From Archangium lipolyticum (GTDB lineage Bacteria; Myxococcota; Myxococcia; Myxococcales; Myxococcaceae), in contig NZ_JANKBZ010000032.1 of the NCBI RefSeq assembly GCF_024623785.1, forward strand, positions 1-64,000: DNA of 64,000 nucleotides, written 5' to 3'. The notes under the pieces were generated by a model. The model did no database searches and was not told where the DNA came from. It worked only from the letters and a program-made list of their open reading frames with translations. This document shows, piece after piece, positions 276 through 34,814 of the stretch. The translations under genes were made by a program, and so were the position numbers. Every line of letters starts with the position of its first letter. Position 1 is the first letter of the stretch.

Positions 276-573
276 CGCTCGGCTTCCGCATCCTGCCGCA
301 ATCCTTCGACGAAGGTTTCGTTCACTCCGTGGAAGCGCTTGCTCTCTACCAGGTCTTCGCCGCGGCGAGCGCCTCGTCGAAATCCAGGCCGTTGACCGGC
401 ATCACCGCGAGCCAGTTGATGGGCCCCACGACGTCGAAGACGAGGCCCTTGCCTCCGGTGGCTTCGATGATGCCGGCTCCCGCCGTGTCGCCCGTGCCGA
501 CGCCGTAGACGATGCCTGCGCCCGCGAGCTCCACGCTCGCGAAGCCCGCGCCGAGAGTGAGGTTGCCAATCAT
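203..573 (-). pseudogene. chimeric unidentified ORF starting with LysR leader codons
   Basis: A minus-strand reading starts at 573 with MIGNLTL, the same seven residues that open the LysR gene at 2540, because its start lies in a duplicated promoter segment. After that it continues into unrelated sequence (to a stop at 346) and, in another frame, to 203. I do not recognise the downstream part. It looks like a gene tail placed behind a copied LysR start, probably non-functional. Confidence 0.3.
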
Positions 574-656
574 GCTCCATCATCCACGCCGATGGAGATC
601 ATCATGATTTAATCACTCCCGCGTGGGAGAGGCAGCGTTTAGATTGACGAAATGCA
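554..656. repeat. promoter-region repeat, copy A
   Basis: About 103 bp nearly identical to 2521-2623. It carries the first LysR codons on the minus strand, a palindromic block (AATCATG ... CATGATT) and the leader up to the start of the plus-strand gene. In copy B it separates lysR from the azoreductase gene; here it sits directly upstream of the dioxygenase gene. Confidence 0.85.
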
Positions 657-1557
657 GATGAGCACGAAAACAAAAAGCATGACGCGCCGGGGGCTGCTCG
701 GCGCGATGGGTCTGGCGGTGGTGGCGCTTCCCCTTACCCGCTTCCTGGCGTGGGCGAAGCAACCCGCGAAGCAGGTGGGGAAGGGCTGGGCCACCGGAGG
801 AACCGCCGCGATGACCGGCGCCAGTGCCTACCCCAATCCCTTCACTTCCCAGGTGGGAGCGGCGTGCAAGCTGACGTGCGAGCAGGTCGTGGGCCCCTGC
901 TATGGGAGCACGAAGGTGCGCAAGGACATCAGCGAGGGTCACGCGGGGCTGCCCGTGCGGCTCGCGTTCCGGATATTGGATGAGACCTGCAAGCCCGTTC
1001 CGGGGGCGAGCGTGGATATCTGGCATGCCGGACCCGAGGGCGTCTATTCAGGCGACGATCAGCACCCGCTCTGCAATCCCCATGACGAGAAGGCGCGAGC
1101 CGCGCATTGGTTCCGGGGTGTGCAGACAACGAACGACGAGGGCCGGGTGGATTTCAATACCTGCTTTCCTGGCTGGTACAAGAGCCGGACCGTGCATATC
1201 CATTTCACCATCAGGATCGCGGGCACCGAGAGCGTGACGTCTCAACTCTACTTCGAGGACTCGCTCAACGACGACATCCTGAGCACCCAGGCGCTCTACA
1301 ACACGCGTGGCGTACGCGACACGCGCAACTCAACCGACAAGACGGCGGCACCCGACAAACAGGGTGACTTCGTGCTCCAAACCCGGAAGATGTCGGATGG
1401 TGCGCTGCTGGCCTGGAAGACATTCATCGTCCGCTCCTCGACGGGCATTCCCTTGTGCGATGCCAGCAGCGAACACGTCAAGGCGTTGATGAAGTCGGGC
1501 GTCAATCCCGCGGACCCAAACACCTTCCCCTCCGAAATGCTCTCCCCGGAGAATTGA
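652..1557 (+). CDS. Tat-exported intradiol ring-cleavage dioxygenase-like protein
   Basis: A 301-residue protein of the intradiol dioxygenase superfamily (protocatechuate 3,4-dioxygenase/catechol dioxygenase fold), which opens catechol-type rings with a non-haem Fe(III). Residues 11-30 form a twin-arginine signal (TRRGLLGAMG plus hydrophobic stretch), so it is probably exported. The family core is visible: TCEQVVGPCY, then DIWHAGPEGVYSG, then GWYKSRTVHIHF, which supply the expected Tyr/Tyr/His/His iron ligands. Start is ATG 652 or ATG 658; neither has a strong ribosome binding site. It lies just downstream of a copied LysR-type divergent promoter, suggesting co-control with the azoreductase gene at 2642. 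The substrate cannot be read from sequence. Confidence 0.85.
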   Translation: MQMSTKTKSMTRRGLLGAMGLAVVALPLTRFLAWAKQPAKQVGKGWATGGTAAMTGASAYPNPFTSQVGAACKLTCEQVVGPCYGSTKVRKDISEGHAGLPVRLAFRILDETCKPVPGASVDIWHAGPEGVYSGDDQHPLCNPHDEKARAAHWFRGVQTTNDEGRVDFNTCFPGWYKSRTVHIHFTIRIAGTESVTSQLYFEDSLNDDILSTQALYNTRGVRDTRNSTDKTAAPDKQGDFVLQTRKMSDGALLAWKTFIVRSSTGIPLCDASSEHVKALMKSGVNPADPNTFPSEMLSPEN

Positions 1558-1604
1558 GGCGTATAGGAGCATGGCGCGGCACCCTCCCGGATGAGCGACC
1601 CCCA

Positions 1605-2540
1605 TTACCGATGGCGAGCTTCAGGTCGAGCGCCAGGGGCTCGCTCGATCTCGAGGCGGCGTCTCAGGTCCTCGAGCAGCCAGCGCCCGGCGGGACCGAG
1701 CATTCGATCACGTCTGTGGGCCGCATAGATCGTCAGCCCGTCGCGCGGAGTCGTATCCTGATCGATGTGGAGCAGCGTCAGCCGGCCGGCAGCGATCGGT
1801 TCGGCGACGAGATGCTCGGGCATGCGACACCACCCGAAGCCGGCAAGCAGGAAGTCGAGACGCCGTCCAAGATCGACGAAGCGCCATAGTCTCGCGCTTA
1901 GAAGCCCATAATTCTCGCCGCCGGGCTCGACTGGATCCGTGAGCACGAGCTGGACGTGCGGCTCCAGGTCAGCCCGCGTAGCCGACCGCCCGAGCGAAGC
2001 GAGCGGATGCGCGGGCGCCGCCACGGGCAGCAACCCGATCCGGAGCAGCGGGTAGGCGACGATATCGTCGGGAACGGCAGGTAGGAGCAGGCAGATCGCC
2101 AAGGCGGCCGAGCCGTTGCGCAGGCGCCGCAACGAACCGCCGAGCCCCTCCGTCGAGAAGCTGACCGGAAGAGCGGGAAAGGTGCCGCTGAGCGCGCGCA
2201 GACTTTCGATCAGCGGCGCCGTCGGCACCAGGGGATCGATCGCGAGCGCGAGTTCGGGCTCCAGCCCCGCGCGCGTGCTTGCCGCCACCGCTTCGAACCG
2301 GGTCGCGCTCGCCAGCACCAGCCGCGCCTGCTCGACGAGCACGCGCCCGATCTCGGTCAGCTGCGGTCGGTGACCGCTCCGGTCGAAGAGCAACACCCCC
2401 TGCATGTCCTCGAGCGTCGCCACGGCCTGGCTGATCGCCGATTGCGCACGGCGGAGCTTGCGGCCAGCAGCGGAAAAGCTGCCCGTGTCGGCAATCGTCA
2501 CGAGGACACGCAGTTGATCCAGAGTGAGGTTACCAATCAT
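1605..2540 (-). CDS. LysR-family transcriptional regulator
   Basis: A 311-residue LTTR. The N-terminal winged helix-turn-helix is clear (LDQLRVLVTIADTGSFSAAG, then RRAQSAISQAVATLE), followed by a substrate-binding domain to about residue 300. It is divergent from the azoreductase gene at 2642 with about 100 bp between, the usual LTTR arrangement, so it probably controls that gene. The copied promoter at 554-656 makes the dioxygenase gene a second possible target. The inducer is unknown. Confidence 0.9.
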   Translation of the reverse strand: MIGNLTLDQLRVLVTIADTGSFSAAGRKLRRAQSAISQAVATLEDMQGVLLFDRSGHRPQLTEIGRVLVEQARLVLASATRFEAVAASTRAGLEPELALAIDPLVPTAPLIESLRALSGTFPALPVSFSTEGLGGSLRRLRNGSAALAICLLLPAVPDDIVAYPLLRIGLLPVAAPAHPLASLGRSATRADLEPHVQLVLTDPVEPGGENYGLLSARLWRFVDLGRRLDFLLAGFGWCRMPEHLVAEPIAAGRLTLLHIDQDTTPRDGLTIYAAHRRDRMLGPAGRWLLEDLRRRLEIERAPGARPEARHR

Positions 2541-2623
2541 GATCCATCATCCACGCCGATGGAGATCATCATGATTTAATCACTCCCGCAAGGGAGAGGC
2601 GGCGTTTAGGTTGACGAAATGCA
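2521..2623. promoter_or_regulatory. lysR/azoreductase divergent promoter, repeat copy B
   Basis: Divergent control region containing an inverted repeat (AATCATGATCC / GGAGATCATCATGATT) of the kind LysR proteins bind. It is duplicated at 554-656 with only a few base differences. Confidence 0.6.
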
Positions 2624-2641
2624 ACCGACAGGAAACCCCTA

Positions 2642-3259
2642 ATGTCCAAGCTTCTCATCGTCGAGACCAGCCCGCGCGGTGACCAGTCCATCTCGCGCAA
2701 CATGACCCGCCGCTTCGTCGCCGAATGGCGAGCCGCGCATCCAGGCGGCGAAGTGGCCGAACGCGACCTCATGGAGACCGAGCTCCCGTTCGTCACCGCG
2801 CCCTGGCTTCAGGCCTATTTCACGCCGCCCGAGCAGCACTCGCCAGGAATGAAGGAGGCGCTCCGGCTGTCGGACGAGCTCGTCGCGGAGCTGCTTGCCG
2901 CCGACCACCTCGTCATCGCCACGCCGGTCTACAACTACAACGTGCCGGCGGCCTTGAAGGCGTGGATCGATCACATCGTGCGCAAGGGGCTGACGCTTGG
3001 CTACGATGGGCAAGGCCTCGTCACGGGCAAGAAGGCGACGATACTGCTCGCCTCGGGCGGCGTTTATACCGAAGAGTCGCCGATCCGGAATCGCGACATC
3101 GCGACGCAGTATCTGCGCCTGATCCTGAACGTGATCGGCATCACCGACGTGACGATCGTCGCGGGCGGGGGCGCGAAGGTCGTCGACATGGGCAAGGAGA
3201 CGATGGACGGGTTCCTGGCGAGGATCGAACCCGACATCGAGCGCGCCGCGTCGAGTTAG
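2642..3259 (+). CDS. azoR: FMN-dependent NADH-azoreductase (AzoR-like)
   Basis: A 205-residue flavodoxin-like quinone/azo reductase, close to the roughly 200 residues typical of AzoR. The N-terminal FMN phosphate-binding loop ([12 protein letters not shown]) follows the first beta strand, and the conserved [18 protein letters not shown] motif sits near residue 100. Such enzymes carry out two-electron reduction of quinones and azo compounds and often protect against thiol or quinone stress. Pairing with a divergent LysR gene and a catechol-dioxygenase-like gene suggests a response to aromatic or quinone compounds (inference). Confidence 0.9.
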
Positions 3260-3274: not shown

Positions 3275-4561
3275 CTATTGGTCGCCGCGTGACGGAGTGA
3301 GGGACGATGCGCCCTCGGACGCGCCGGTCGCGCTCGCGGTGGCCTCGCCGACGAACGTGGCGATGCTCTGCGGATCGACATAGAACGACGCCGCGCCATT
3401 CTGGGCCTGATAGCCGCCGCCGTAGCCGACGTTCAGGCTCGACGAGGTGCTGTACTTGGTGAACCTGGCCACGCGACCGCTCGGCACGCTGACGTTGAGG
3501 CCTCGGTGCTGCGTGCTGGTGTTGACGACGACGAGCACGATCTTGCCGTCCGGCGTCTCATACGCGGTCGCGTAAACGTCCGAATACGGTTTCTCGGTGG
3601 CACCGATGCGCACGGAGCCGGGCCGGACAAAGCGCGCGAACTGGGACATCACATAACCGCGCTTGCTGACACTGCCGTTCTCCGAGATCAGGCCGTAGCT
3701 GCGTCGGATGTACCACCAGATGTACCCGCTGTAGTTGGCGACCATGCTCTTGTGCAGTTCGCTGCCCACCTCCAATGCCGACGGCCAGACATTGGCATCG
3801 GTGTTGTCGGTGAAGTGCTCGGTCATCCACAGTTCCTTGCCTTTGCTCCGAGCCAGCGGATAGTCCTTCGGCTGCACGCCGTACAGGTGGCCGCCGACGA
3901 TGTCCAGGTGCTGGCTGGTGGTGGCGTTGTTGAGGATTGGATCGGTCATCGCCGGGTTGAAGTTCAGCGACTCGGCGGCCAACACCTTCAGCGTGCCGAA
4001 CCTGGCGCCCTGGGCATTCAGGAAATTGGCGAAGTCGGTCCCACTCCACTCCGCCGACTCGTAGTCCGGGTGCCAGTCGGGCTCATTCTGCAAAGAGATC
4101 GCGTACAGCGGCGCGTTGTTGTTGGCCATGTAGCTGGCGAAACCGAGCAGGTGCGTCGCATAGGCCTCGTAGTACTGGGGCAACAGTTTGCCGCCGTTGA
4201 TCAGGCTGTTGTTCGACTTCATGTAGGCAGGAGGCGTCCACGGCGTCCCCAGCAGGAGCGCTCCCTTGGCATGCGCGCGCGCGGCTGAGGGCACCTGTAG
4301 ATTCCACCTGGAACTCGACGGGTCGATGCGCATCCGCATGATCGACAGGCCGAGCTGGCCGGCGTCGCTGCCGAAGGCCAGATCGACCTGGGCCGGCGTC
4401 AGATCGTCGATCCAGCCCGGAGCATTCATGCCGCCGAAGCCGCGAATGGCCTGATGCTTTTTCGATGGATCGATGACGACGTTCTGCGCCGATGCGTTCG
4501 CACCGAAAAGACATGCACCCAGCAGAGGCAAGACCACCCGTAGTACGAATGACGTTTTCAT
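3275..4561 (-). CDS. secreted GH30-family xylanase
   Basis: A 428-residue secreted glycoside hydrolase family 30 enzyme, similar in length to bacterial glucuronoxylanase XynC. A signal peptide (MKTSFVLRVVLPLLG ... NASA) starts at ATG 4561, which has a GGGGAA ribosome site; the longer open frame to 4702 is discarded because it overlaps the upstream gene's end. The fold begins with HQAIRGFGGMNAPGW. The acid/base glutamate is in LQNEPDWHP and the nucleophile glutamate in ELWMTEHF. A C-terminal beta domain follows. It lies 79 bp downstream of a GH62 gene on the same strand: a two-gene arabinoxylan-degrading unit. Confidence 0.9.
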   Translation of the reverse strand: MKTSFVLRVVLPLLGACLFGANASAQNVVIDPSKKHQAIRGFGGMNAPGWIDDLTPAQVDLAFGSDAGQLGLSIMRMRIDPSSSRWNLQVPSAARAHAKGALLLGTPWTPPAYMKSNNSLINGGKLLPQYYEAYATHLLGFASYMANNNAPLYAISLQNEPDWHPDYESAEWSGTDFANFLNAQGARFGTLKVLAAESLNFNPAMTDPILNNATTSQHLDIVGGHLYGVQPKDYPLARSKGKELWMTEHFTDNTDANVWPSALEVGSELHKSMVANYSGYIWWYIRRSYGLISENGSVSKRGYVMSQFARFVRPGSVRIGATEKPYSDVYATAYETPDGKIVLVVVNTSTQHRGLNVSVPSGRVARFTKYSTSSSLNVGYGGGYQAQNGAASFYVDPQSIATFVGEATASATGASEGASSLTPSRGDQ

Positions 4562-4640
4562 GTTGTTCCCCGCGCCTGTGAGATGAGCATCCGGTCCGGT
4601 AGCCTGGAGCACCACCGAACCATCATCGCTGACGCCGTGG

Positions 4641-5726
4641 TCAGCAGGAGGAGTTGGTCTGGGTGAGGAGCCCGAGCTTCCAGGGCAGCAGGTTGTAGTC
4701 ACCGCCCGCCGAGGGGTTCTTGCCCTGGTAGAGGTACTGCAGGCGGCACGGGTCGATCTCCATCGTCTGGTCGATGCCGGAGCGGATCATCTCTCCGTGG
4801 CTGATGTCAGCGCTCCAGGCACCCGACGGGAACGTGACGTTGTTCGCGCGCGCGAACGGGTTGCTCTCCGTTGCCGCCAACGGTGTCCACGAACCGGTGA
4901 TGCCATTGGCGGTCCACGACCGGAAGTAACGCTTGCCGTCACTGCCGATCGCCTCGACGAGCAGCAGATAGGTGTTGGTGCCCTTGATCTTGTAGATGTT
5001 CGACGCCTCCCACAGCGCGTACTTGTTGGAGTCCTGCAACACCATCACGGTGTTGGTGAACCCGTTGGGGAAGTTGGCCACCGTGGTCTGCGCGCGGTAG
5101 AGATGGCCGTTGTCGTCGGAGGAGAACAGGTAGCAGTTCAAGGCGTCACAGATGACCCAGAAGTCCACCCAGTACCCGTTGCCGATGTTGCTACGGATGA
5201 TGTCGGGCATCGAGTTCTGGAAGTTCCGCGGCGCCGACCACGTCTCGGGCCTCTCGATGTCGGTGGTAGTGGAGTACGACGGCAAACCGGTCTGGTAGAC
5301 CAGATACCAGCGGTTCTGCGGCGCGAACCAGAACACCTGCGGCGCCGCGCGGTACCCGGCGCCGATCGCCGAGCGGTCCAGGTAGTACTGAGACGCCGAG
5401 GACGCCTGCGACCAGTCGGCGAAGCCGGTGTACATCATGTTGTAGCCGCCGGTCGAACTGGCGGTCGAGGCGAACACGTGCCACTTGTTGTTGTAGCGCA
5501 CCACGGTCGGATCCTTGACCGCGACGATGTTGTGCGACGCGTCGGACTTCGGGCCGATCAACACCCCGCTGGACGACCAGCGGAAACTTGATGGGAACGC
5601 GGCCGCAGTGGCCACCCCTTGGGTTGAGTCCGTGGACGGTCGAACCACGGCGGAAGCCGCGGCGGTGGCGCTACTCAGGCAAAGAGTGGTCGCGGCGAGC
5701 ACCGCGCACCAGCGTATTCCTCTCAT
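4641..5726 (-). CDS. secreted GH62 alpha-L-arabinofuranosidase
   Basis: A 361-residue secreted GH62 enzyme, which removes arabinose side chains from arabinoxylan. I place the start at ATG 5726 (MRGIRWCAVLAATTLCLSS signal peptide) because GGGGA lies six bases upstream; upstream in-frame ATGs (5738, 5744) have no such site. GH62 landmarks include VAVKDPTVVRYNNKWHVFAS (catalytic Asp), YWVDFWVICD, and the C-terminal SHGEMIRSG. The protein reads like actinobacterial (Streptomyces-type) GH62 enzymes, consistent with transfer (inference). It precedes the GH30 gene and has its own promoter and a lac-type operator upstream. Confidence 0.9.
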   Translation of the reverse strand: MRGIRWCAVLAATTLCLSSATAAASAVVRPSTDSTQGVATAAAFPSSFRWSSSGVLIGPKSDASHNIVAVKDPTVVRYNNKWHVFASTASSTGGYNMMYTGFADWSQASSASQYYLDRSAIGAGYRAAPQVFWFAPQNRWYLVYQTGLPSYSTTTDIERPETWSAPRNFQNSMPDIIRSNIGNGYWVDFWVICDALNCYLFSSDDNGHLYRAQTTVANFPNGFTNTVMVLQDSNKYALWEASNIYKIKGTNTYLLLVEAIGSDGKRYFRSWTANGITGSWTPLAATESNPFARANNVTFPSGAWSADISHGEMIRSGIDQTMEIDPCRLQYLYQGKNPSAGGDYNLLPWKLGLLTQTNSSC

Positions 5727-5827
5727 TGCAGTCCCCATCGTCATCGTTGATGGGCGAGCCGCCTCGATGCCCGATGCAGCCCGACCTGGGTCAAAACTGC
5801 CATTCGTCTGAGCTTCAGTCCCAGTCA

Positions 5828-5856
5828 CCATAATGACGTCGTTTTCGACGAGTCAA
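5828..5856 (-). promoter_or_regulatory. sigma70-type promoter for the GH62/GH30 unit
   Basis: On the minus strand TTGACT (-35, 5851-5856) and TTATGG (-10, 5828-5833) are 17 bp apart, about 100 bp upstream of the GH62 start. Position, spacing and hexamers fit a vegetative promoter reading into the xylan genes. Confidence 0.5.
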
Positions 5857-5875
5857 TGCGCGAACAGGACAGATT

Positions 5876-5887
5876 GTGAGCGCTCAC
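5876..5887. promoter_or_regulatory. LacI-type palindromic operator
   Basis: GTGAGCGCTCAC, inside TTGTGAGCGCTCACAT, is a perfect 12-bp palindrome equal to the core of the symmetric lac operator. It lies 20 bp upstream of the -35 box of the GH62/GH30 promoter. No LacI-family gene is in the window, so the repressor or activator must be elsewhere, or the site came along with the genes from another genome. Confidence 0.55.
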
Positions 5888-6312
5888 ATGGGCTTGTTCG
5901 TAAGTGAACGCCAGGTGCTCCGCAATCGCTCGCACCCCTCCCGCCTCGTTCACGTACGCCAGCACTCCCAGCACGGAGTTGAAGAAAAGCCCGCGCATGC
6001 TGTGATGAACCGGCATGGAGGCCAGCCGCTGTTGCATCTCCTCCTCGGAGCCGAGCTGCATCCTCATGCCCTTATTTTTCCATGGCTCACGGGCGCGGCC
6101 AATGGGGGCGAGGCGGGGTAGGGCGATTCCGTCCGCACCTGCGCGAGGTGGTGGGCTTCCACGTCGAGCAGGCCGCCAACGGACGCGCCGGCCTGGAGCA
6201 GGGGGCCGTGCCACGGCGAGCCCCGCAGTGCCCACACTCGTTCCAGACAGGAAATGACCCGCTCCCGTGGACGTAGGGAGGAGGGAGCATCGACCTCGGA
6301 AGGAAAGAGCGC

Positions 6313-7767: not shown

Positions 7768-7917
7768 CATGACCCACCTGCTCTTCACATCCAGTTCCCG
7801 TGCCATGGTCGCGGCAACCAGCGGTTCCGCCTGGAAGTGTTGGGTGATGGGTTCTTCGGGCTCAGGGCCAGGCACAGTGGGCAGTGCCTGGACGTTGGAA
7901 GCGCATCGAAAGTATAG
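7768..7917 (+). pseudogene. ricin-type beta-trefoil lectin fragment
   Basis: A plus-strand frame ending at 7917 contains NQRFRLEVLGDGFFGLRARH followed by SGQCLDVGSAS, the repeat signature of ricin B-type (QxW) carbohydrate-binding domains. Only one subdomain remains, with no start or flanking catalytic module, so this is a relic of a lectin or glycoside hydrolase gene. Confidence 0.55.
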
Positions 7918-8129
7918 GACGGATAGGAGCCCTGTAGAGAGGTGGCGGCGAGGAGCGGAGGTGGCGAGGCGGGCCGCTGACGGGGGCCCGCCCGAGCAGT
8001 GAGCCAGGCGGGAGGAGAAGCCGCGTTGCCCCTTGGGGTACACGTCGGCCCAGGCCGCCCTCCCATGAGATGCGGGGCAGGGGCCTGGCTCTGTTGGCGC
8101 TGGCGGCTTGAGTTTCAACACCACGAGGC

Positions 8130-8226
8130 GTGGAGGGGCCCGTGCGCCGGGGCCAGCCTCGCACCTGCCGTGGGCAGGCCCAGGTGCTCCAGAATCGCTC
8201 GCACCCCTCCCGCCTCGTTCACGTGC
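8130..8226 (-). pseudogene. IS91-family transposase C-terminal fragment
   Basis: Minus-strand reading HVNEAGGVRAILEHLGLPTA followed by GARLAP is the end of an IS91/IS801-type (HUH Y2) transposase. The same stretch recurs, diverged, at 5900-5960. No catalytic part is present. Confidence 0.55.
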
Positions 8227-8434
8227 GGGTGCTCGTCGCGGGTTACAGCATGGGCGCCCAGGTGGGGCTCCTGCTGGCCTCACGCGCGACCCGTTCTCCA
8301 CGGCGGAGAACAACCAGGCGCTGTTCGAGGCCGCGCCTTCCAAGCGCAAGGCTCGCAAGGCCTTCGACAGTGGACACACCTTGCCGCGCGAGTACCTCGA
8401 CGAGGTGCGCCGCTGGTTGAGCGAGACGCGATAA
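8222..8434 (+). pseudogene. broken alpha/beta hydrolase gene
   Basis: VLVAGYSMGAQVGLLLASR (8228-8285) is a hydrolase nucleophile elbow (G-x-S-x-G). In the next frame DPFSTAENNQALFEAAP, then FDSGHTLPREYLDEVRRWL, ends with a stop at 8434, typical of the catalytic-His C-terminus of dienelactone-hydrolase-like proteins. The cap and middle are missing and the two pieces are in different frames, so the gene is dead. An IS91 tail on the opposite strand abuts its left edge. Confidence 0.55.
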
Positions 8435-8454
8435 TCCTCACTCGACGATGCAGG

Positions 8455-8505
8455 GCCGGGCTCTCCTCCTCCAGCCCCGGCTCCGCCCCCGCTCGAGGGA
8501 GCATG
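8455..8505 (-). pseudogene. short IS91 transposase fragment
   Basis: GAEPGLEEESPA on the minus strand is shared with the larger IS91 fragment at 10265-10400; the DNA is almost identical over about 35 bp. Confidence 0.4.
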
Positions 8506-8542
8506 CCGTGCTGATCGCCATCCAGCGCGGCATGCTGGAGCT

Positions 8543-9352
8543 TCAGGCCTGACGCGCCATCAGCGCATTCAGGCCGGGATAGTTCAGCGCCGGCGCCGGT
8601 GGCGTAAGGATTTCGCCGTTTTGCAGGAAGTGCCGCATGGAGTTCGAGACAAAGCTGAACATCGTCTCCGAGATATCGGATCCCGCGCTGAGGCGCCGTA
8701 CGCCCAGTTGCGCGAGACGTTCTGGCGACGGGAAGCCCGGTCGCACCAGCACATTCAGCGGCAGCGTGCAACCCGCGGCGATGGCGGACATGTCGGCTTC
8801 CTCGCGCACTCCAGGCACGAACAGGCCGCTGGCGCCAGCTTCCTTGTAGAGCTGTGCGCGACGCAACGTTTCCGCCACCCGAGCACCCGCGTCGACCAGC
8901 GGGCGCAGATAAACATCGGTGCGGGCATTGATGTACAGGTTCACGCCAGCAGCCGCTGCTGCCCGGCGCGTCGCAGCGATTTTCCGGCACAGCAGTTCAG
9001 GCGCTTCGGTGCCGTCTTCGATGTTGATGCCGACCACGCCTCCCCGCAGCAGTTCCGTCACCAGCGCGGCCACGCGCTCCGGTTCCGACGCATAGCCGTC
9101 CTCGATATCGACACTCAGGGGCAGTTCGCTCACGCGCTTGATGCCCTTCACGGTCGCCAGCAGCAAGTCGGTCGGCAGTCTGCTGCCGTCCGCAAAGCCA
9201 TGCGACCACGCCACGGCGGCGCTGCTCGTGGCAAGCGCCTTGCTGCCAACCGCTTCGGCAATGCGGGCGCTCCCCGCATCCCAGCAGTTGGACAGCATCA
9301 ACAAACCTTCTGCATGCAGGGCATGGAACACTTCGTCGTGACGGGTTTTCAT
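8543..9352 (-). CDS. isocitrate lyase/PEP mutase family protein
   Basis: A 269-residue protein of the isocitrate lyase/phosphoenolpyruvate mutase superfamily (TIM barrel). Visible landmarks are MLSNCWDAGSARIAEAVG near the N-terminus, the PLSVDIEDGYAS metal-binding loop, the INIEDGTEAPELL loop and YINARTDVYL. The canonical KKCGH catalytic loop of 2-methylisocitrate lyase is not evident, so the reaction (C-C or P-C lyase, or oxaloacetate hydrolase type) cannot be assigned. Flanked by gene fragments; no operon. Confidence 0.85.
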   Translation of the reverse strand: MKTRHDEVFHALHAEGLLMLSNCWDAGSARIAEAVGSKALATSSAAVAWSHGFADGSRLPTDLLLATVKGIKRVSELPLSVDIEDGYASEPERVAALVTELLRGGVVGINIEDGTEAPELLCRKIAATRRAAAAAGVNLYINARTDVYLRPLVDAGARVAETLRRAQLYKEAGASGLFVPGVREEADMSAIAAGCTLPLNVLVRPGFPSPERLAQLGVRRLSAGSDISETMFSFVSNSMRHFLQNGEILTPPAPALNYPGLNALMARQA

Positions 9353-9737
9353 GGGTTTCCTTCTACCTCATCCGCCAGGCTCCATAGAACGACGCATGGC
9401 TGCTCGGCGGCGCGCACGGAGGCCGGCAGTTCCACCTCGCCAAGAACGAGGTCTAGCGAGGGGGGTAGCTGTTCTGGTTGCTCTCCTGCTGCTGCTGGAG
9501 ACGGCGGCGGTTCTCTTCGTTCTCGGTTCGGCCTCGCTCCTCCTCGGTATGGGTGACTCCTGAGCGAAGATGAGGCGAGGACCGTATGGACGCACCCTCA
9601 TGACGAGATGACTGCCCCCACCTCGGGCTCAGCGACATTTTGACGAGGAATAAAACCACGATCAGCCCTGTGCGCAGCGAATACGAGGCAAGACAGCGCG
9701 CCTGGGCGTTGGCTCGCGTTTTGCGATTGAGGCGGGT
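9353..9737. other. gene-poor stretch with short gene tails
   Basis: No intact gene recognised. On the plus strand a reading ending LLGGAHGGRQFHLAKNEV with a stop near 9456 looks like the C-terminus of a lost gene. On the minus strand a reading ending at 9453 has a Gln/Asn/Arg-rich tail. Neither could be assigned. Confidence 0.3.
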
Positions 9738-10163
9738 ATGTCCTCAGAGCCTCGATCTCGCGATCATGACAAGAGAGAGCAGACGAACCGCACGGTGCTT
9801 GTTATCGGCGGCAGCGGGGGAATGTCGGATCGCTACCGTGACGTCGTGGAAGGGCGCGGCTGGTCGCTGCGCCATTACGAAAACCGGCTGCCGCCGGGAG
9901 CGCGGCGCGATCTCGGCAAGGTCGCGCTCGTGGTGATCATCGTGAGCATGGTCTCCCACGCGCTCCGCGATCAGGTGCGGAGCCTCGCGGTGGACGGCGC
10001 GCCCATCGTCTATCTTCGCAGCGCCTCCGTCTCCGCGCTGCGCGGGCTCGTCGAGCAATTGCCGCGTGAGCAGCGAGACGACATCCTCTTGAGGGATCGA
10101 CGGTCAGCGTCGACGCCTCGAGCGAGTAGATACATCACCTCTTCGACGTATGACCCTGATTGA
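9738..10163 (+). CDS. DUF2325 domain protein, C-terminus altered
   Basis: A reading of 141 residues from ATG 9738. Residues 19-100 fit DUF2325: a strand and glycine loop (TVLVIGGSGGMSDRYRDVVE), a middle helix, then VALVVIIVSMVSHALRDQV and APIVYLRSASVSALRGLVEQ. Unlike typical members, the CDCVSH-type cysteines are missing. The last 35 residues run over antisense remnants of other genes, so the native C-terminus has been replaced. Function of DUF2325 is not firmly known. Confidence 0.5.
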   Translation: MSSEPRSRDHDKREQTNRTVLVIGGSGGMSDRYRDVVEGRGWSLRHYENRLPPGARRDLGKVALVVIIVSMVSHALRDQVRSLAVDGAPIVYLRSASVSALRGLVEQLPREQRDDILLRDRRSASTPRASRYITSSTYDPD

Positions 10164-17588: not shown

Positions 17589-17633
17589 GCGAGGATGCCG
17601 ATGCGCTCGTCTCGGCCGCGCAGCCGCTCGCTT

Positions 17634-20600
17634 CTAGCGCAGCGCCGCGAGGGCCGCGCCGACCTTCGCCACCGTCACCGACACGGGCGTCGTCACCTCC
17701 GGGGCGAAGATGGCCACGCGGAGCTCCTCGAAGGCCCACCGCAGCTCCCGCGCCGCCTCCTGGTCACGCACGGTGGCGCGCCTGGCGAGGAAGGTCTCCC
17801 ACAGGGGGGTGAAGGGCTCGGCCTTCCCCGCGTCCTTGCCGGGGTTCGCCACCGCACGCGCCAGCCGTGCCTGGGCCGCGCGGAGGTAGCGCGGGTAGTC
17901 CAGCAGGCGCACGAAGGGAATCCACTCGATGAGGTTGGCGGGGAACAGGTGCCCGAGCTGCGAGCGGATGTCCCGCACGGCCGCCGAGCCGCTCGGCCCC
18001 TTGGATGCTGTCTTGAGTGCGGCGAGCGTCGCGGCGAGCGCCGAGGAGGTGGCCATGACGGCCTCCGCCCAGTCCCGGGCCGCACGCTCGATGCGCGGTG
18101 AGCCCTCACGGACCAGCGCCTCGAAGTCCGCCTTCGTGCGGGGCAGCGGCGCACCCGGTGCGAGCTTGAACGCATCGTCGACGGCGCGTGCGAGGACGAG
18201 CGCCCGGAAGGCGTCGGCCTGGCCCCGCGCGGGCGGCGCGCCGTCCAGGGACGGGAAGGGCGGCGGCATGCGCGCGGCGCTGACGGCCACGTGTCCGCGC
18301 GCGGCGAGCATCAGGAGCCGGCGGACCCCCGTGCGCGTGGCCGCGTCGGCGGCGGAGGAGGTCTCGAGCAGCACCAGGTCCACGGCGGCACCCCGGTCGA
18401 CGAGCGCGGGGTAGCTGCGGATCTCGAGCCCACCGACCCGCCGGGTGACCACGGGGGGCAGTTCTCCGAAGGTCCAGGCCGTCAGCCCCTTGCGCTCCCA
18501 GTCCGAGGCCGGTGCCGCGCTGCGCAGCGCCGCCCGGGCACGTCCCCCGTGTTGCTCGAGCAGCGCGTCGGCGTCGCGGCTCCTCGCGAGCTCCTTTCCC
18601 CGCTCGTCGAGCACCCGGAGCGTGATGCGCAGGTACGGCGCCACGGCATCCGCCCGGAGGGACTCCTCGGGCAGGTCCACGCCGCACAGCCGGGACACCG
18701 CACGCGCGAGCGCTGGAATCATCGGCCCGCGGAAGGGCACCAGCTCCTTCTCGAGACGGTCGACCAGGTCCGGCACCGGCCCCAGCTGCTTGCGCTGGGC
18801 GCGGGGGACCTGCTCGAGCAGGGCGGCGAGCTTCTCCCGCTGCCACCCGGGGATGGTCCAGTCGAGTTCTCCGGGGACCAGCTGGGCGAGCAGCAGCAGC
18901 GGCACGCTCAGGGTGATGCCGTCGTCCTCGGCCGCGGGGTCGAAGGTGTACGTCACCGGCACGGACGCGCCGTGCAGGGTGATGGCGTCCGGGTAGTGCG
19001 CCGGGGACAGGCCCGGGTCGTGTGCGAGGGCATCCTCCATGGAGAGGACGAGCACGTCGGGGTCGGCCGCCTCGGCCTTGCGGCGCCAGGCCTCGAAGCT
19101 CGCCCCGTCCGTCACGTCCGCCGGGACGCGCTGGTCGAAGAACGTCAGCAGCGCCTCGCTGTCGAGCAGCTCGCTGCGCCGGGCCTTGTCCCGCAGGCGT
19201 GCCACGCGCTCGAGCACCTGGCGGTTCTTCTCCTGGAACGCCCCCCGCGTGCGGTACTCGCCGCGCACCAGGGCATGCTCGAGGAACATCAGCCGTGCCC
19301 GCTCCTTGTCCATGCTGGCCAGGGCCACGGGGCGCTCCTTGAAGACCTGCAGCCCGAAGAGGGTCGCGCTCTCCTTCACCACGGCGCGCGCGGACTTCTC
19401 CGACCAGTGCGGTTCGGAGTAGCTGCGCTTGAGCAGGTGGGGGGCCGCCGCCGCGAGCCACTCCGGGTCGAGCTTCGCCACGGTGCGCGCGAACAGCTGG
19501 GACGTCTCCACGAGCTCGAACGCCATCACCCAGGCAGGGGGCTTCTTCGCGAGCGCCGACGAGGGGTGAACCATGAAGCGCGTCTGCTTCGCGCCCGTAT
19601 AGTGGCGCTGCTCCGGATTCCACTGGCCGATGCGGGACAGGAGCCCGGTGAGCAGCGCCTGGTGCAGGGCGTCCCCGCGCGCCGGGGCGCCCTGGCCCTT
19701 GCGCGGCAGGCGCAGCTCGCGGACGGTCTCCTCGAGCTGGCGCTGGACGTCCCGCCACTCGCGCACCCGCAGGAAGGACAGGAAGTTGTCCCGGCACACG
19801 CGCCGCAGGTGGGACGTCCCCCGGCCTTCGGCCTCGCGCACGAACGCCCACAGCTTGAGCAGGCCCGTGAAGTCCGAGTGCTCGTCTCGGAAGCGCCGGT
19901 GCAGCTCGTCCGCCTTCTGCGCGAGCTCCCTTGGCCGCTCGCGCGGGTCCTGCAGGTTGAGCGCCGCGGCGACGATGAGCACCTCGTCCAGGCACCCGTA
20001 CTCGGCGCCGGCGAGAATCATCCGCGCGATGCGCGGGTCCACCGGGAAGCGCGCGAGCTGGTGCCCGAGCGGCGTCAGGGTGCGCTCCTTGCCCTCGATG
20101 GCCCCGAGCTCCTCGAGCACCCGCCAGCCCTCGGCGATGGACTTCGGCTGGGGCGGGTCGAGGAAGGGGAAGTCCTCGACGTCACCGAGGCCGAGGGACT
20201 TCATCCGCAGGATGACCCCCGCGAGCCCGGTGCGCTTGATTTCCGGGTCGGTGAAGGCGGGCCGCGTGGTGAAGCTCGCCTCGTCGTAGAGGCGCACGCA
20301 GATCCCCTCGCGCACGCGTCCGCAGCGCCCTTTGCGCTGGTCGGCGCTGGCCTGGGAGACCGGCTCGATGTGCAGGCGGGTGGTGCCCGAGCGTGGGTCG
20401 TAGCGCGACAGGCGCGCCACCCCCGTGTCCACGACGTACACGATCCCCGGGATGGTGACCGACGTCTCCGCGACGTTGGTGGCGAGGATGACCCGGCGCT
20501 CGGGGATGGTGGCGAAGACGCGCGACTGCTCGGCGGCCGACAGGCGCGCATACAGGGGCTGCACCACCGTGCCGCGGAGCTCGCGCGCGTTCAGGGCATT

Positions 20601-21344
20601 CTCGGCCTCGCGGATTTCCCGCTCCCCGGGGAGGAACACGAGGACGTCCCCGTCCGGGTCGAGCGAGAGCACGTCGGCCACCGCATCGGCGACGGAGTCA
20701 GCGAGCTCGGCGTCCTCGGGGGGAGGCTCGTAGAGCACGTCCACCGGAAAGGTACGGCCCTCCACCTGGATGACCGGAGCCCCCCCGAAGAACCGCGAGA
20801 AGCGCTCGGTCTCGATGGTGGCCGAGCTCACCACCACCTTGAGGTCGGGGCGCCTGGGGAGGATGCGCTTGAGCCACCCCAGCAGGAAGTCGATGGTGAG
20901 GCTGCGCTCGTGGGCCTCGTCGAGCACGACCGTGTCGTAGCGGCTCAGGAGCGGGTCGCCGTGAATCTGCGCGAGCAGGACGCCGTCGGTCATGAACTTC
21001 ACGGCCGTCCGCCGGGACGAGCGGTCCTCGAAGCGAATCTGGTAGCCGACGTCCGTGCCCAGCTCCGTGCCGAGCTCGCGTGCCACGCGCGCCGCCACGC
21101 TCGTCGCGGCGATACGCCGGGGCTGGGTGACGCCAATCTGGCGCGGGCGGCCGCGCCCCATGGCGAGCAGGACTTTCGGCAGCTGCGTCGTCTTCCCCGA
21201 GCCGGTGGCCCCCGCGACAATGACCACCTGATGGGCGGTGATGGCCGCGGTGATGTCCTCCACCCGGCTCGAGATGGGGAGCTCGGGGGGGAAGTGCAGG
21301 GTGGGCAAGCCGCCGGGGATGGGGACGGGTGAGTCGCCGGACAT
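17634..21344 (-). CDS. hrpA: ATP-dependent RNA helicase HrpA
   Basis: A 1236-residue DEAH-box helicase of the HrpA family (E. coli HrpA is about 1300). Start ATG 21344 (MSGDSPVPIPGGL); the open frame upstream is intergenic. Motif I is GATGSGKTTQLPK, motif II LDEAHERS, motif III SSATIETERF, motif VI QRKGRCGRVREG. A helicase-associated/OB region follows, then the long C-terminal DUF3418-type part. HrpA rescues stalled ribosomes and remodels RNA in other bacteria. Its first 462 codons or so plus 98 bp upstream are duplicated at 33331-34814. Confidence 0.95.
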   Translation of the reverse strand: MSGDSPVPIPGGLPTLHFPPELPISSRVEDITAAITAHQVVIVAGATGSGKTTQLPKVLLAMGRGRPRQIGVTQPRRIAATSVAARVARELGTELGTDVGYQIRFEDRSSRRTAVKFMTDGVLLAQIHGDPLLSRYDTVVLDEAHERSLTIDFLLGWLKRILPRRPDLKVVVSSATIETERFSRFFGGAPVIQVEGRTFPVDVLYEPPPEDAELADSVADAVADVLSLDPDGDVLVFLPGEREIREAENALNARELRGTVVQPLYARLSAAEQSRVFATIPERRVILATNVAETSVTIPGIVYVVDTGVARLSRYDPRSGTTRLHIEPVSQASADQRKGRCGRVREGICVRLYDEASFTTRPAFTDPEIKRTGLAGVILRMKSLGLGDVEDFPFLDPPQPKSIAEGWRVLEELGAIEGKERTLTPLGHQLARFPVDPRIARMILAGAEYGCLDEVLIVAAALNLQDPRERPRELAQKADELHRRFRDEHSDFTGLLKLWAFVREAEGRGTSHLRRVCRDNFLSFLRVREWRDVQRQLEETVRELRLPRKGQGAPARGDALHQALLTGLLSRIGQWNPEQRHYTGAKQTRFMVHPSSALAKKPPAWVMAFELVETSQLFARTVAKLDPEWLAAAAPHLLKRSYSEPHWSEKSARAVVKESATLFGLQVFKERPVALASMDKERARLMFLEHALVRGEYRTRGAFQEKNRQVLERVARLRDKARRSELLDSEALLTFFDQRVPADVTDGASFEAWRRKAEAADPDVLVLSMEDALAHDPGLSPAHYPDAITLHGASVPVTYTFDPAAEDDGITLSVPLLLLAQLVPGELDWTIPGWQREKLAALLEQVPRAQRKQLGPVPDLVDRLEKELVPFRGPMIPALARAVSRLCGVDLPEESLRADAVAPYLRITLRVLDERGKELARSRDADALLEQHGGRARAALRSAAPASDWERKGLTAWTFGELPPVVTRRVGGLEIRSYPALVDRGAAVDLVLLETSSAADAATRTGVRRLLMLAARGHVAVSAARMPPPFPSLDGAPPARGQADAFRALVLARAVDDAFKLAPGAPLPRTKADFEALVREGSPRIERAARDWAEAVMATSSALAATLAALKTASKGPSGSAAVRDIRSQLGHLFPANLIEWIPFVRLLDYPRYLRAAQARLARAVANPGKDAGKAEPFTPLWETFLARRATVRDQEAARELRWAFEELRVAIFAPEVTTPVSVTVAKVGAALAALR

Positions 21345-21442
21345 GGCAGCATTGCCTAGCACTGAAGCGCACGCTCCGCCCCTGACGAATCGTGTGGGCA
21401 CCTGCACGCCCGGCGTTCCTGGAGGAATTCTCCCTGCACGCG
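19959..21442. repeat. 1.48-kb direct repeat, copy 1 (5' half of hrpA)
   Basis: Same-orientation copy of 33331-34814 (offset 13,372 bp throughout, with no indels seen). Differences I noticed are few, for example 21310 G/A and 21320 A/G. Confidence 0.9.
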
Positions 21443-33330: not shown

Positions 33331-34716
33331 GAGCGCCGCGGCGACGATGAGCACCTCGTCCAGGCACCCGTACTCGGCGCCGGCGAGAATCATCCGCGCG
33401 ATGCGCGGGTCCACCGGGAAGCGCGCGAGCTGGTACCCGAGCGGCGTCAGGGTGCGCTCCTTGCCCTCGATGGCCCCGAGCTCCTCGAGCACCCGCCAGC
33501 CCTCGGCGATGGACTTCGGCTGGGGCGGGTCGAGGAAGGGGAAGTCCTCGACGTCACCGAGGCCGAGGGACTTCATCCGCAGGATGACCCCCGCGAGCCC
33601 GGTGCGCTTGATTTCCGGGTCGGTGAAGGCGGGCCGCGTGGTGAAGCTCGCCTCGTCGTAGAGGCGCACGCAGATCCCCTCGCGCACGCGTCCGCAGCGC
33701 CCTTTGCGCTGGTCGGCGCTGGCCTGGGAGACCGGCTCGATGTGCAGGCGGGTGGTGCCCGAGCGTGGGTCGTAGCGCGACAGGCGCGCCACCCCCGTGT
33801 CCACGACGTACACGATCCCCGGGATGGTGACCGACGTCTCCGCGACGTTGGTGGCGAGGATGACCCGGCGCTCGGGGATGGTGGCGAAGACGCGCGACTG
33901 CTCGGCGGCCGACAGGCGCGCATACAGGGGCTGCACCACCGTGCCGCGGAGCTCGCGCGCGTTCAGGGCATTCTCGGCCTCGCGGATTTCCCGCTCCCCG
34001 GGGAGGAACACGAGGACGTCCCCGTCCGGGTCGAGCGAGAGCACGTCGGCCACCGCATCGGCGACGGAGTCAGCGAGCTCGGCGTCCTCGGGGGGAGGCT
34101 CGTAGAGCACGTCCACCGGAAAGGTACGGCCCTCCACCTGGATGACCGGAGCCCCCCCGAAGAACCGCGAGAAGCGCTCGGTCTCGATGGTGGCCGAGCT
34201 CACCACCACCTTGAGGTCGGGGCGCCTGGGGAGGATGCGCTTGAGCCACCCCAGCAGGAAGTCGATGGTGAGGCTGCGCTCGTGGGCCTCGTCGAGCACG
34301 ACCGTGTCGTAGCGGCTCAGGAGCGGGTCGCCGTGAATCTGCGCGAGCAGGACGCCGTCGGTCATGAACTTCACGGCCGTCCGCCGGGACGAGCGGTCCT
34401 CGAAGCGAATCTGGTAGCCGACGTCCGTGCCCAGCTCCGTGCCGAGCTCGCGTGCCACGCGCGCCGCCACGCTCGTCGCGGCGATACGCCGGGGCTGGGT
34501 GACGCCAATCTGGCGCGGGCGGCCGCGCCCCATGGCGAGCAGGACTTTCGGCAGCTGCGTCGTCTTCCCCGAGCCGGTGGCCCCCGCGACAATGACCACC
34601 TGATGGGCGGTGATGGCCGCGGTGATGTCCTCCACCCGGCTCGAGATGGGGAGCTCGGGGGGGAAGTGCAGGGTGGGCAAACCGCCGGGGGTGGGGACGG
34701 GTGAGTCGCCGGACAT
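33331..34716 (-). pseudogene. hrpA 5' duplicate, truncated
   Basis: From ATG 34716 the first 462 codons or so of HrpA repeat almost without change (MSGDSPVPTPGGL; GATGSGKTTQ, DEAH and QRKGRCGR motifs present). After AEYGCLDEVLIVAAAL the frame runs into unrelated sequence (REGVKELERRALAPP). The product would have both RecA domains but no C-terminal half. It may be expressed from the copied 98-bp upstream region. Confidence 0.85.
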
Positions 34717-34814
34717 GGCAGCATTGCCTAGCACTGAAGCGCACGCTCCGCCCCTGACGAATCGTGTGGGCACCTGCGCGCCCGGTGTTCCTGGAGGAAT
34801 TCTCCCTGCACGCT
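33331..34814. repeat. 1.48-kb direct repeat, copy 2
   Basis: Copy of 19959-21442. Its left edge abuts the RAYT remnant region and its right edge an IS91 transposase fragment. Confidence 0.9.

Follow-up and report, generated by a model that had tools for sequence, protein, structure and literature searches.

Ferrieres et al. reportedly described in 2004 how the regulon of FixJ, a two-component response regulator of Sinorhizobium meliloti, grew by promoter duplication, and regulon growth by this route is thus already known. The locus analyzed here resembles the FixJ case in that a regulated promoter is copied before another gene, which would bring that gene into the regulon. It differs in that the promoter is a divergent one of the LysR type, joined exactly at a start codon, and in that a previous regulator appears to have been replaced. 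In horizontal regulatory transfer, or promoter switching, non-coding DNA is exchanged while the gene is kept; here, in contrast, the promoter comes from the locus of a different regulator and is not an allele of the same gene. A further comparison is offered by LysG-lysE of Mycobacterium tuberculosis, in which a LysR-type activator has a target promoter with a leaderless transcript (PMC5648196). The leaderless transcript was measured there whereas we infer it here, and the LysG-lysE passage of that paper contains no promoter duplication (PMC5648196). In the accessible portion of PMC4051601, LysR occurs once, in a reference title about BexR. Among the literature matches listed, which include few subscription journals, no title concerns this regulator, operator or fusion, and among the same matches the capture of a LysR promoter at an exact start codon, with a swap of regulator, would be new.

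The window, a 64,000-nt stretch of Archangium lipolyticum DNA, contains a direct repeat whose two copies, A and B, align without gaps and agree at 97 of 103 bases (BLAST E-value 2.3e-39). In plus-strand order the repeat consists of the first lysR codons, the whole divergent promoter and ATGCA. The original prediction described it as a 103-bp duplicate of the lysR/azoR promoter, carrying the first seven LysR codons and lying directly upstream of an intradiol dioxygenase gene. The duplication is borne out, being the sole such pair found in the genome, and so are the lysR codons, with the start of lysR at 2540 on the minus strand. The placement before the dioxygenase also stands, but the dioxygenase ORF begins inside the repeat, so that the start codon itself was captured and the gene is an in-frame fusion. 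The features of the locus are as follows.

554 to 656, plus strand: copy A, with the 5' remnant of lysR, the putative LysR operator, the promoter and ATGCA, joined to the dioxygenase gene (by identity with copy B)
554 to 573, minus strand: remnant of about the first seven lysR codons in copy A (by sequence comparison)
576 to 610, plus strand: putative operator of copy A (pattern match with 0 mismatches, identical to the copy B operator)
640 to 645, plus strand: -10-like hexamer of copy A, TAGATT, with the ATCACT box (612-617) 28 nt away and the ATG at 652 following after 6 nt
652 to 1557, plus strand: intradiol dioxygenase ORF (PF00775, E-value 4.6e-14; PDB relatives; fusion frame)
1594 to 1595, no strand: joint at which the dioxygenase 3' flank common with Hyalangium ends and the lysR 3' flank common with Corallococcus CA053C begins (located with query 1541-1680)
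1605 to 2540, minus strand: LysR-type regulator gene of the azoR/dodA group (PF00126, 1.9e-18; PF03466, 1.1e-21; relatives)
2521 to 2623, plus strand: copy B, the divergent lysR promoter in its putative parental form (repeat and genome searches)
2543 to 2577, plus strand: putative operator of copy B (pattern match)
2619 to 2642, plus strand: remnant of the dodA start, a mini-ORF reading MQPTGNP and a stop (by sequence; Corallococcus CA053C has an intact dodA here)
2642 to 3259, plus strand: azoR, of the FMN-dependent NADH-azoreductase/quinone reductase family (PF02525; NCBIfam azoreductase models, below their curated cut-offs)

A search at an E-value of 0.001 or less found no third copy in the 12.59-Mb genome of the organism. 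The repeat has matches in three of the 59 genomes searched, namely its own, G003 from the same genus, which has both copies at a spacing equal to that in the window, and G032 from the same family, which has one copy at 85% identity. The arrangement is real: G003 is a single-contig genome, and the presence of both copies in it rules out an assembly artefact. Chance similarity between the copies was likewise ruled out, by BLAST of the organism's own genome. At the edges of the locus, a small functional protein from the chimeric ORF at 346-573 was rejected, as it has no Pfam match and its left flank is different in G003; we take the fragment at 100-270, at the contig start, to resemble by eye the C-terminal end of 3-methyladenine DNA glycosylase I (Tag).

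Relatives of the window LysR were gathered by scanning contigs of one genome per species, which gave 91 loci, with 80 kept. The promoter alignment comprises 69 of the 80; the remaining 11 have no start-to-start promoter, either because the start of lysR or of its neighbor was unmatched or because there was no dodA or azoR match within 400 bases. The lysR start is matched divergent to azoR in 61 loci and to dodA followed by azoR in eight, with dodA recognized from a match to Pfam LigB (PF02900) and from one, below the model's cut-off, to NCBIfam 4,5-DOPA-extradiol-dioxygenase. In regulator family, operator and divergent layout, copy B agrees with these lysR <- P -> azoR and lysR <- P -> dodA -> azoR units, which occur in Proteobacteria and Myxococcota. 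Across the 69 loci, which are not 69 independent cases because many are from related Pseudomonas and one (Corallococcus CA053C) is from the family of the window, 31 promoter columns are conserved in at least 80%, and copies A and B keep all 31. The six differences between the copies, at repeat positions 12, 22, 70, 71, 81 and 90, all fall outside these columns.

LysR-type sites are marked by a T-N11-A inverted repeat in a divergent promoter. Both copies contain CCATC-N9-GATGG, a putative site of this type, most of whose bases fall in conserved columns of the alignment. It lies within an operator core that reads TCCATC-N7-CCGATGGA-N3-CATCAT-N-ATTT. With up to three mismatches allowed, this pattern occurs at nine sites in seven genomes, all at lysR/dioxygenase loci, with no mismatches except for two in G074; the reversed pattern, used as a control, has no sites in the same genomes. 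Altered LysR-box bases in copy A, which would have spoken against shared control, were looked for and none was found, as all 31 columns and every operator position are intact. When the three fused copies are compared, 13 of 91 columns are variable, and only one of these 13 is among the 29 conserved columns (P = 0.037, a weak test that takes copy B of the window as reference, although copy B is not the ancestor). Hyalangium P1 has one change in a conserved column. Between operator and -10 element, both copies also have a CTCCC-loop-GGGAG inverted repeat (616-629 and 2583-2596), with the same stem but a different loop in copy A, copy B and copy A of G003.

The right end of the repeat is explained by a gene that the window has lost. 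What remains of the dodA start is ATGCAACCGAC at 2619, while Corallococcus sp. CA053C (L055, identical to G074 C195) has lysR <- P -> dodA -> azoR, and G081 has a 22-residue dodA match (73%) at the same place. Since a dodA remnant or an intact dodA sits there in all three, the ATGCA that ends the repeat is the start codon of the lost dodA. Copy B is the parental promoter of a widespread lysR <- P -> [dodA] -> azoR unit. Remnants of the dodA 5' end, of differing length, were seen by eye in Thiohalocapsa, Sphingomonas UV9 and G081 (L061, L066 and L140), as if dodA had been deleted more than once. In the window, the stop of the mini-ORF overlaps the ATG of azoR by one base (TAATG), with translational coupling a possibility.

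The alignment also points to a -10 element at a fixed place. The mean match to TATAAT peaks 28 nt downstream of a conserved ATCxCT box, where it is 3.69 of 6 in the 61 azoR-first loci and 3.0 of 6 in the eight dodA-first loci, whose hexamers are poor. The distance from the box to the ATG is 40-41 nt in all eight dodA-first loci versus 60-184 nt in the azoR-first loci; in the three dioxygenase fusions it is 40, counted by eye. The best hexamer of the dodA-first loci is at offset 28 in six of eight, leaving 6-7 nt to the ATG, and at offsets 26 and 32 in the other two, leaving 8 and 2 nt. A Shine-Dalgarno match of at least four bases was found in 52 of 61 azoR-first loci versus one of eight dodA-first loci. 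Because the start codon of the dodA-first loci is so close behind the -10 position, the dodA mRNA is probably leaderless. In copy A the box is retained, with TAGATT at the 28-nt spacing and 6 nt from there to the ATG at 652; the mRNA of the fused dioxygenase would also start without a leader. The -10 hexamer of copy B, TAGGTT, is poorer than that of copy A.

The dioxygenase begins with ATG CAG from the captured dodA start, followed at 658 by its native start ATGAGC. The junction reads GACGAA ATG CAG ATG AGC in the window and in G003, and CGAA ATG CCA ATG AGC in Hyalangium versicolor (G086/L056). All three fusions have the captured ATG in the reading frame set by the original ATG of the dioxygenase, and native dioxygenase upstream sequence is not recognizable in any of them. 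Two of these three carriers are 99.5% identical over the block and so may count as one case; the window and G003 agree at 99.46% over a 2.2-kb block, a figure from which we claim no recent transfer because other window segments match G003 at 96-99%. Three segments of the window (7910-8224, 17633-21413 and 33331-34785) have counterparts at 97-98% identity within the 50 kb of G003 around this locus, the first being a multi-copy repeat and the other two matching one and the same G003 stretch. Intradiol ring-cleavage dioxygenases have a Dioxygenase_C domain with two Tyr and two His as iron ligands. In the window protein, the motifs GVYSG, GWYKS and VHIHF start at residues 130, 174 and 181, and their Tyr and His residues align with those of 6bdj as the four presumed iron ligands. 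The enzyme has a Tat-like RR motif, noted by eye, and is probably exported.

Native control of the dioxygenase can be seen in relatives. The closest form that is not under the lysR/azoR promoter is that of G081, 89.6% identical to the window's. Its upstream region is common to the dioxygenases of G019, G004 and a paralogue in the window genome (C4:580911, about 69% protein identity); G081 matches the other three at 77-80% over 126-143 nt, with a CAGGAG-type ribosome site. As G081 and three remoter relatives have this other upstream region in common, the dioxygenase would have joined the lysR/azoR promoter secondarily. All four of these dioxygenases have a second LysR gene immediately divergent from them, encoding 308-317 aa, 66-86% identical among the four and 26-30% identical to the window LysR, and matching PF00126 and PF03466 in G081. 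Searches at an E-value of 1e-60 or less found the second LysR in four of 11 genomes, always beside one of the four native dioxygenases, and did not find it in G003, G086, G032, G080, G074, G002 or G005, the first five of which have a dioxygenase linked to the lysR of the window. Where the second LysR is absent, this could be an incidental loss. Neither this gene nor the native upstream region is present near the dioxygenase relatives of G032, G081 and G080 (67-71% identity) within the stretches fetched, and the G008 relative has as its divergent neighbor a LysR that shares only 36% identity with the second LysR. A regulator swap is likely because the four native dioxygenases adjoin, divergently, a LysR gene different from that of the window.

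A family survey of 96 genomes, with three candidate regions scored per genome, identified seven with a strong DNA match to the window lysR, and a dioxygenase or a fragment of one lies beside lysR in all seven. The window genome and G003 have A-dioxygenase followed by lysR-B-azoR, with azoR in G003 cut to 41 codons. Hyalangium (G086) has half a promoter with lysR, then promoter and dioxygenase in the same direction, without azoR. G032 and G080 are arranged as lysR <- P -> azoR -> dioxygenase, the two latter genes being 27 bases apart in G032; G081 has second LysR-dioxygenase convergent with azoR-P-lysR; and G074 has a dioxygenase fragment with lysR <- P -> dodA -> azoR. Among the 80 loci, some of them cut by contig ends, tblastn (E-value of 1e-10 or less, within 6 kb) found no intradiol dioxygenase relative near lysR in 78, the two exceptions being Corallococcus CA053C and Hyalangium. 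Apart from G003, the closest match to the window by nucleotide identity is Corallococcus for lysR (93.7%), G081 for azoR (91.7%) and Hyalangium for the dioxygenase (96%). Given these conflicting histories, the module has recombined or moved between lineages. Two observations concern its surroundings. The G032 module (L009) lies between two similar ORF copies (reverse strand, about 3765-5274 and 7952-9986), a direct repeat that could drive its duplication or loss. G003 (L008) has a third LysR-like gene (reverse strand, 5127-6110), 29-31% identical to the second LysR of G081, and about 12 bases separate the end of this third gene from the copy A lysR remnant that follows it.

We consider it likely that copy A works as a LysR operator-promoter, having taken the place of the dioxygenase's native control region and so swapped its regulator. 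The ancestral dioxygenase would have been divergent from another LysR gene. A stretch from lysR into the start of dodA would then have been duplicated and joined in frame to the dioxygenase (ATG CAG to ATG AGC), a join that would have given it an operator, a promoter and a usable start codon at once, with a ribosome-binding site unneeded. Both copies would be activated by LysR in the presence of its inducer, which is presumably a quinone or a compound of the catechol type, so that the dioxygenase and the azoreductase are proposed to be co-induced. The best evolutionary evidence that copy A matters is that lysR and the fused dioxygenase were kept despite the loss of azoR: azoR was not found in G003 and G086 at an E-value of 1e-40 or less, and both other genes have open frames in both genomes. 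The suggestion that the regulon grew by promoter duplication is upheld insofar as an intact operator-promoter sits on the dioxygenase; the likeliest event, given the different divergent LysR of four relatives, is a swap of regulator and not growth only. In G003 and Hyalangium, where azoR was not found, the regulon would have moved rather than grown, and in a sister genus (G032 and G080) the dioxygenase reached this promoter differently, through a place downstream of azoR.

That other arrangement leads to the rival reading that survives best, though we hold it to be rather unlikely: the dioxygenase was already behind azoR, the locus was tandemly duplicated and one azoR was deleted, so that copy A preserved an existing control. 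G032 and G080 have exactly the lysR <- P -> azoR -> dioxygenase order that this reading starts from, and the 22 lysR codons in copy A of G003 are the left end expected of a longer duplicate. It requires G081 to branch outside the operon and fused forms, and the intermediate tandem occurs in none of the seven loci compared. The dioxygenase tree puts the native G081 beside the fused clade with a support of only 57%, and we examined the question with three fixed trees under three models. The operon-first tree had p-AU values of 0.044, 0.040 and 0.054, with p-KH of 0.12-0.15 and p-SH of 0.16-0.28, and the two other trees were not separated from each other. Independent captures are therefore favored but not proven, as the AU test disfavors the operon-first tree while KH and SH do not reject it. 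The stretch before the dioxygenase in G032 and G080 is short and native-like: the last 34 upstream bases of G032 have a local alignment score of 33 against G081, reached by none of 2000 shuffles, versus 10 for copy A of the window, while BLAST gave no match between the G081 and G032 upstream regions. Copy A may thus represent a second, independent entry of the dioxygenase into the regulon or a membership that was kept, and the tree leans weakly to independent entry.

It is improbable that local rearrangement left copy A behind as an inert remnant, with the dioxygenase silent or driven from elsewhere, even though the neighborhood is very unstable: outside 554-2763, only repeated window segments match the 50 kb of G003 around the locus, and there are further breaks in G074 and G086. 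Against this, three genomes retain the operator, the 28-nt spacing, the -10 element and the start codon while the lysR codons erode, from 22 in G003 to seven in the window and about three in Hyalangium, as if the lysR part of copy A were a leftover beside a conserved operator. The dioxygenase has an open frame in which most changes are synonymous (22, versus 14 non-synonymous, between window and Hyalangium; dN/dS 0.19), and loss of azoR has left lysR and the fused gene in place. A small mobile or repetitive element present by chance at both places, for which the abrupt ends and the differing module neighbors might speak, is rejected as scarcely credible, as the genome has only two copies, 56 of the 59 genomes searched have none, the right end is the dodA start codon and the left end is in lysR coding sequence at a different point per genome.

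Beyond the captured promoter of the window, we tentatively suggest that operator, promoter and start codon form a portable unit, possibly one that pulled this dioxygenase lineage from the control of its own LysR twice independently, by fusion (window, G003 and Hyalangium) and by insertion behind azoR (G032 and G080), with G081, where both LysR pairs lie side by side, as the state before capture. If so, any gene joined in frame at the ATG of the unit would be regulated and translated, because the mRNA would be leaderless. Whether leaderless promoters are easier to capture, given that a start codon comes with them, is a testable question. Regulon rewiring is usually inferred from networks; here, candidate before, neighboring and after states are visible in living genomes and the exact joint is visible at the locus, where it can be tested whether a gene can move between LysR-type regulators in a single step. 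For these soil myxobacteria, the locus ties an intradiol dioxygenase to what is presumably a quinone/azoreductase regulon.
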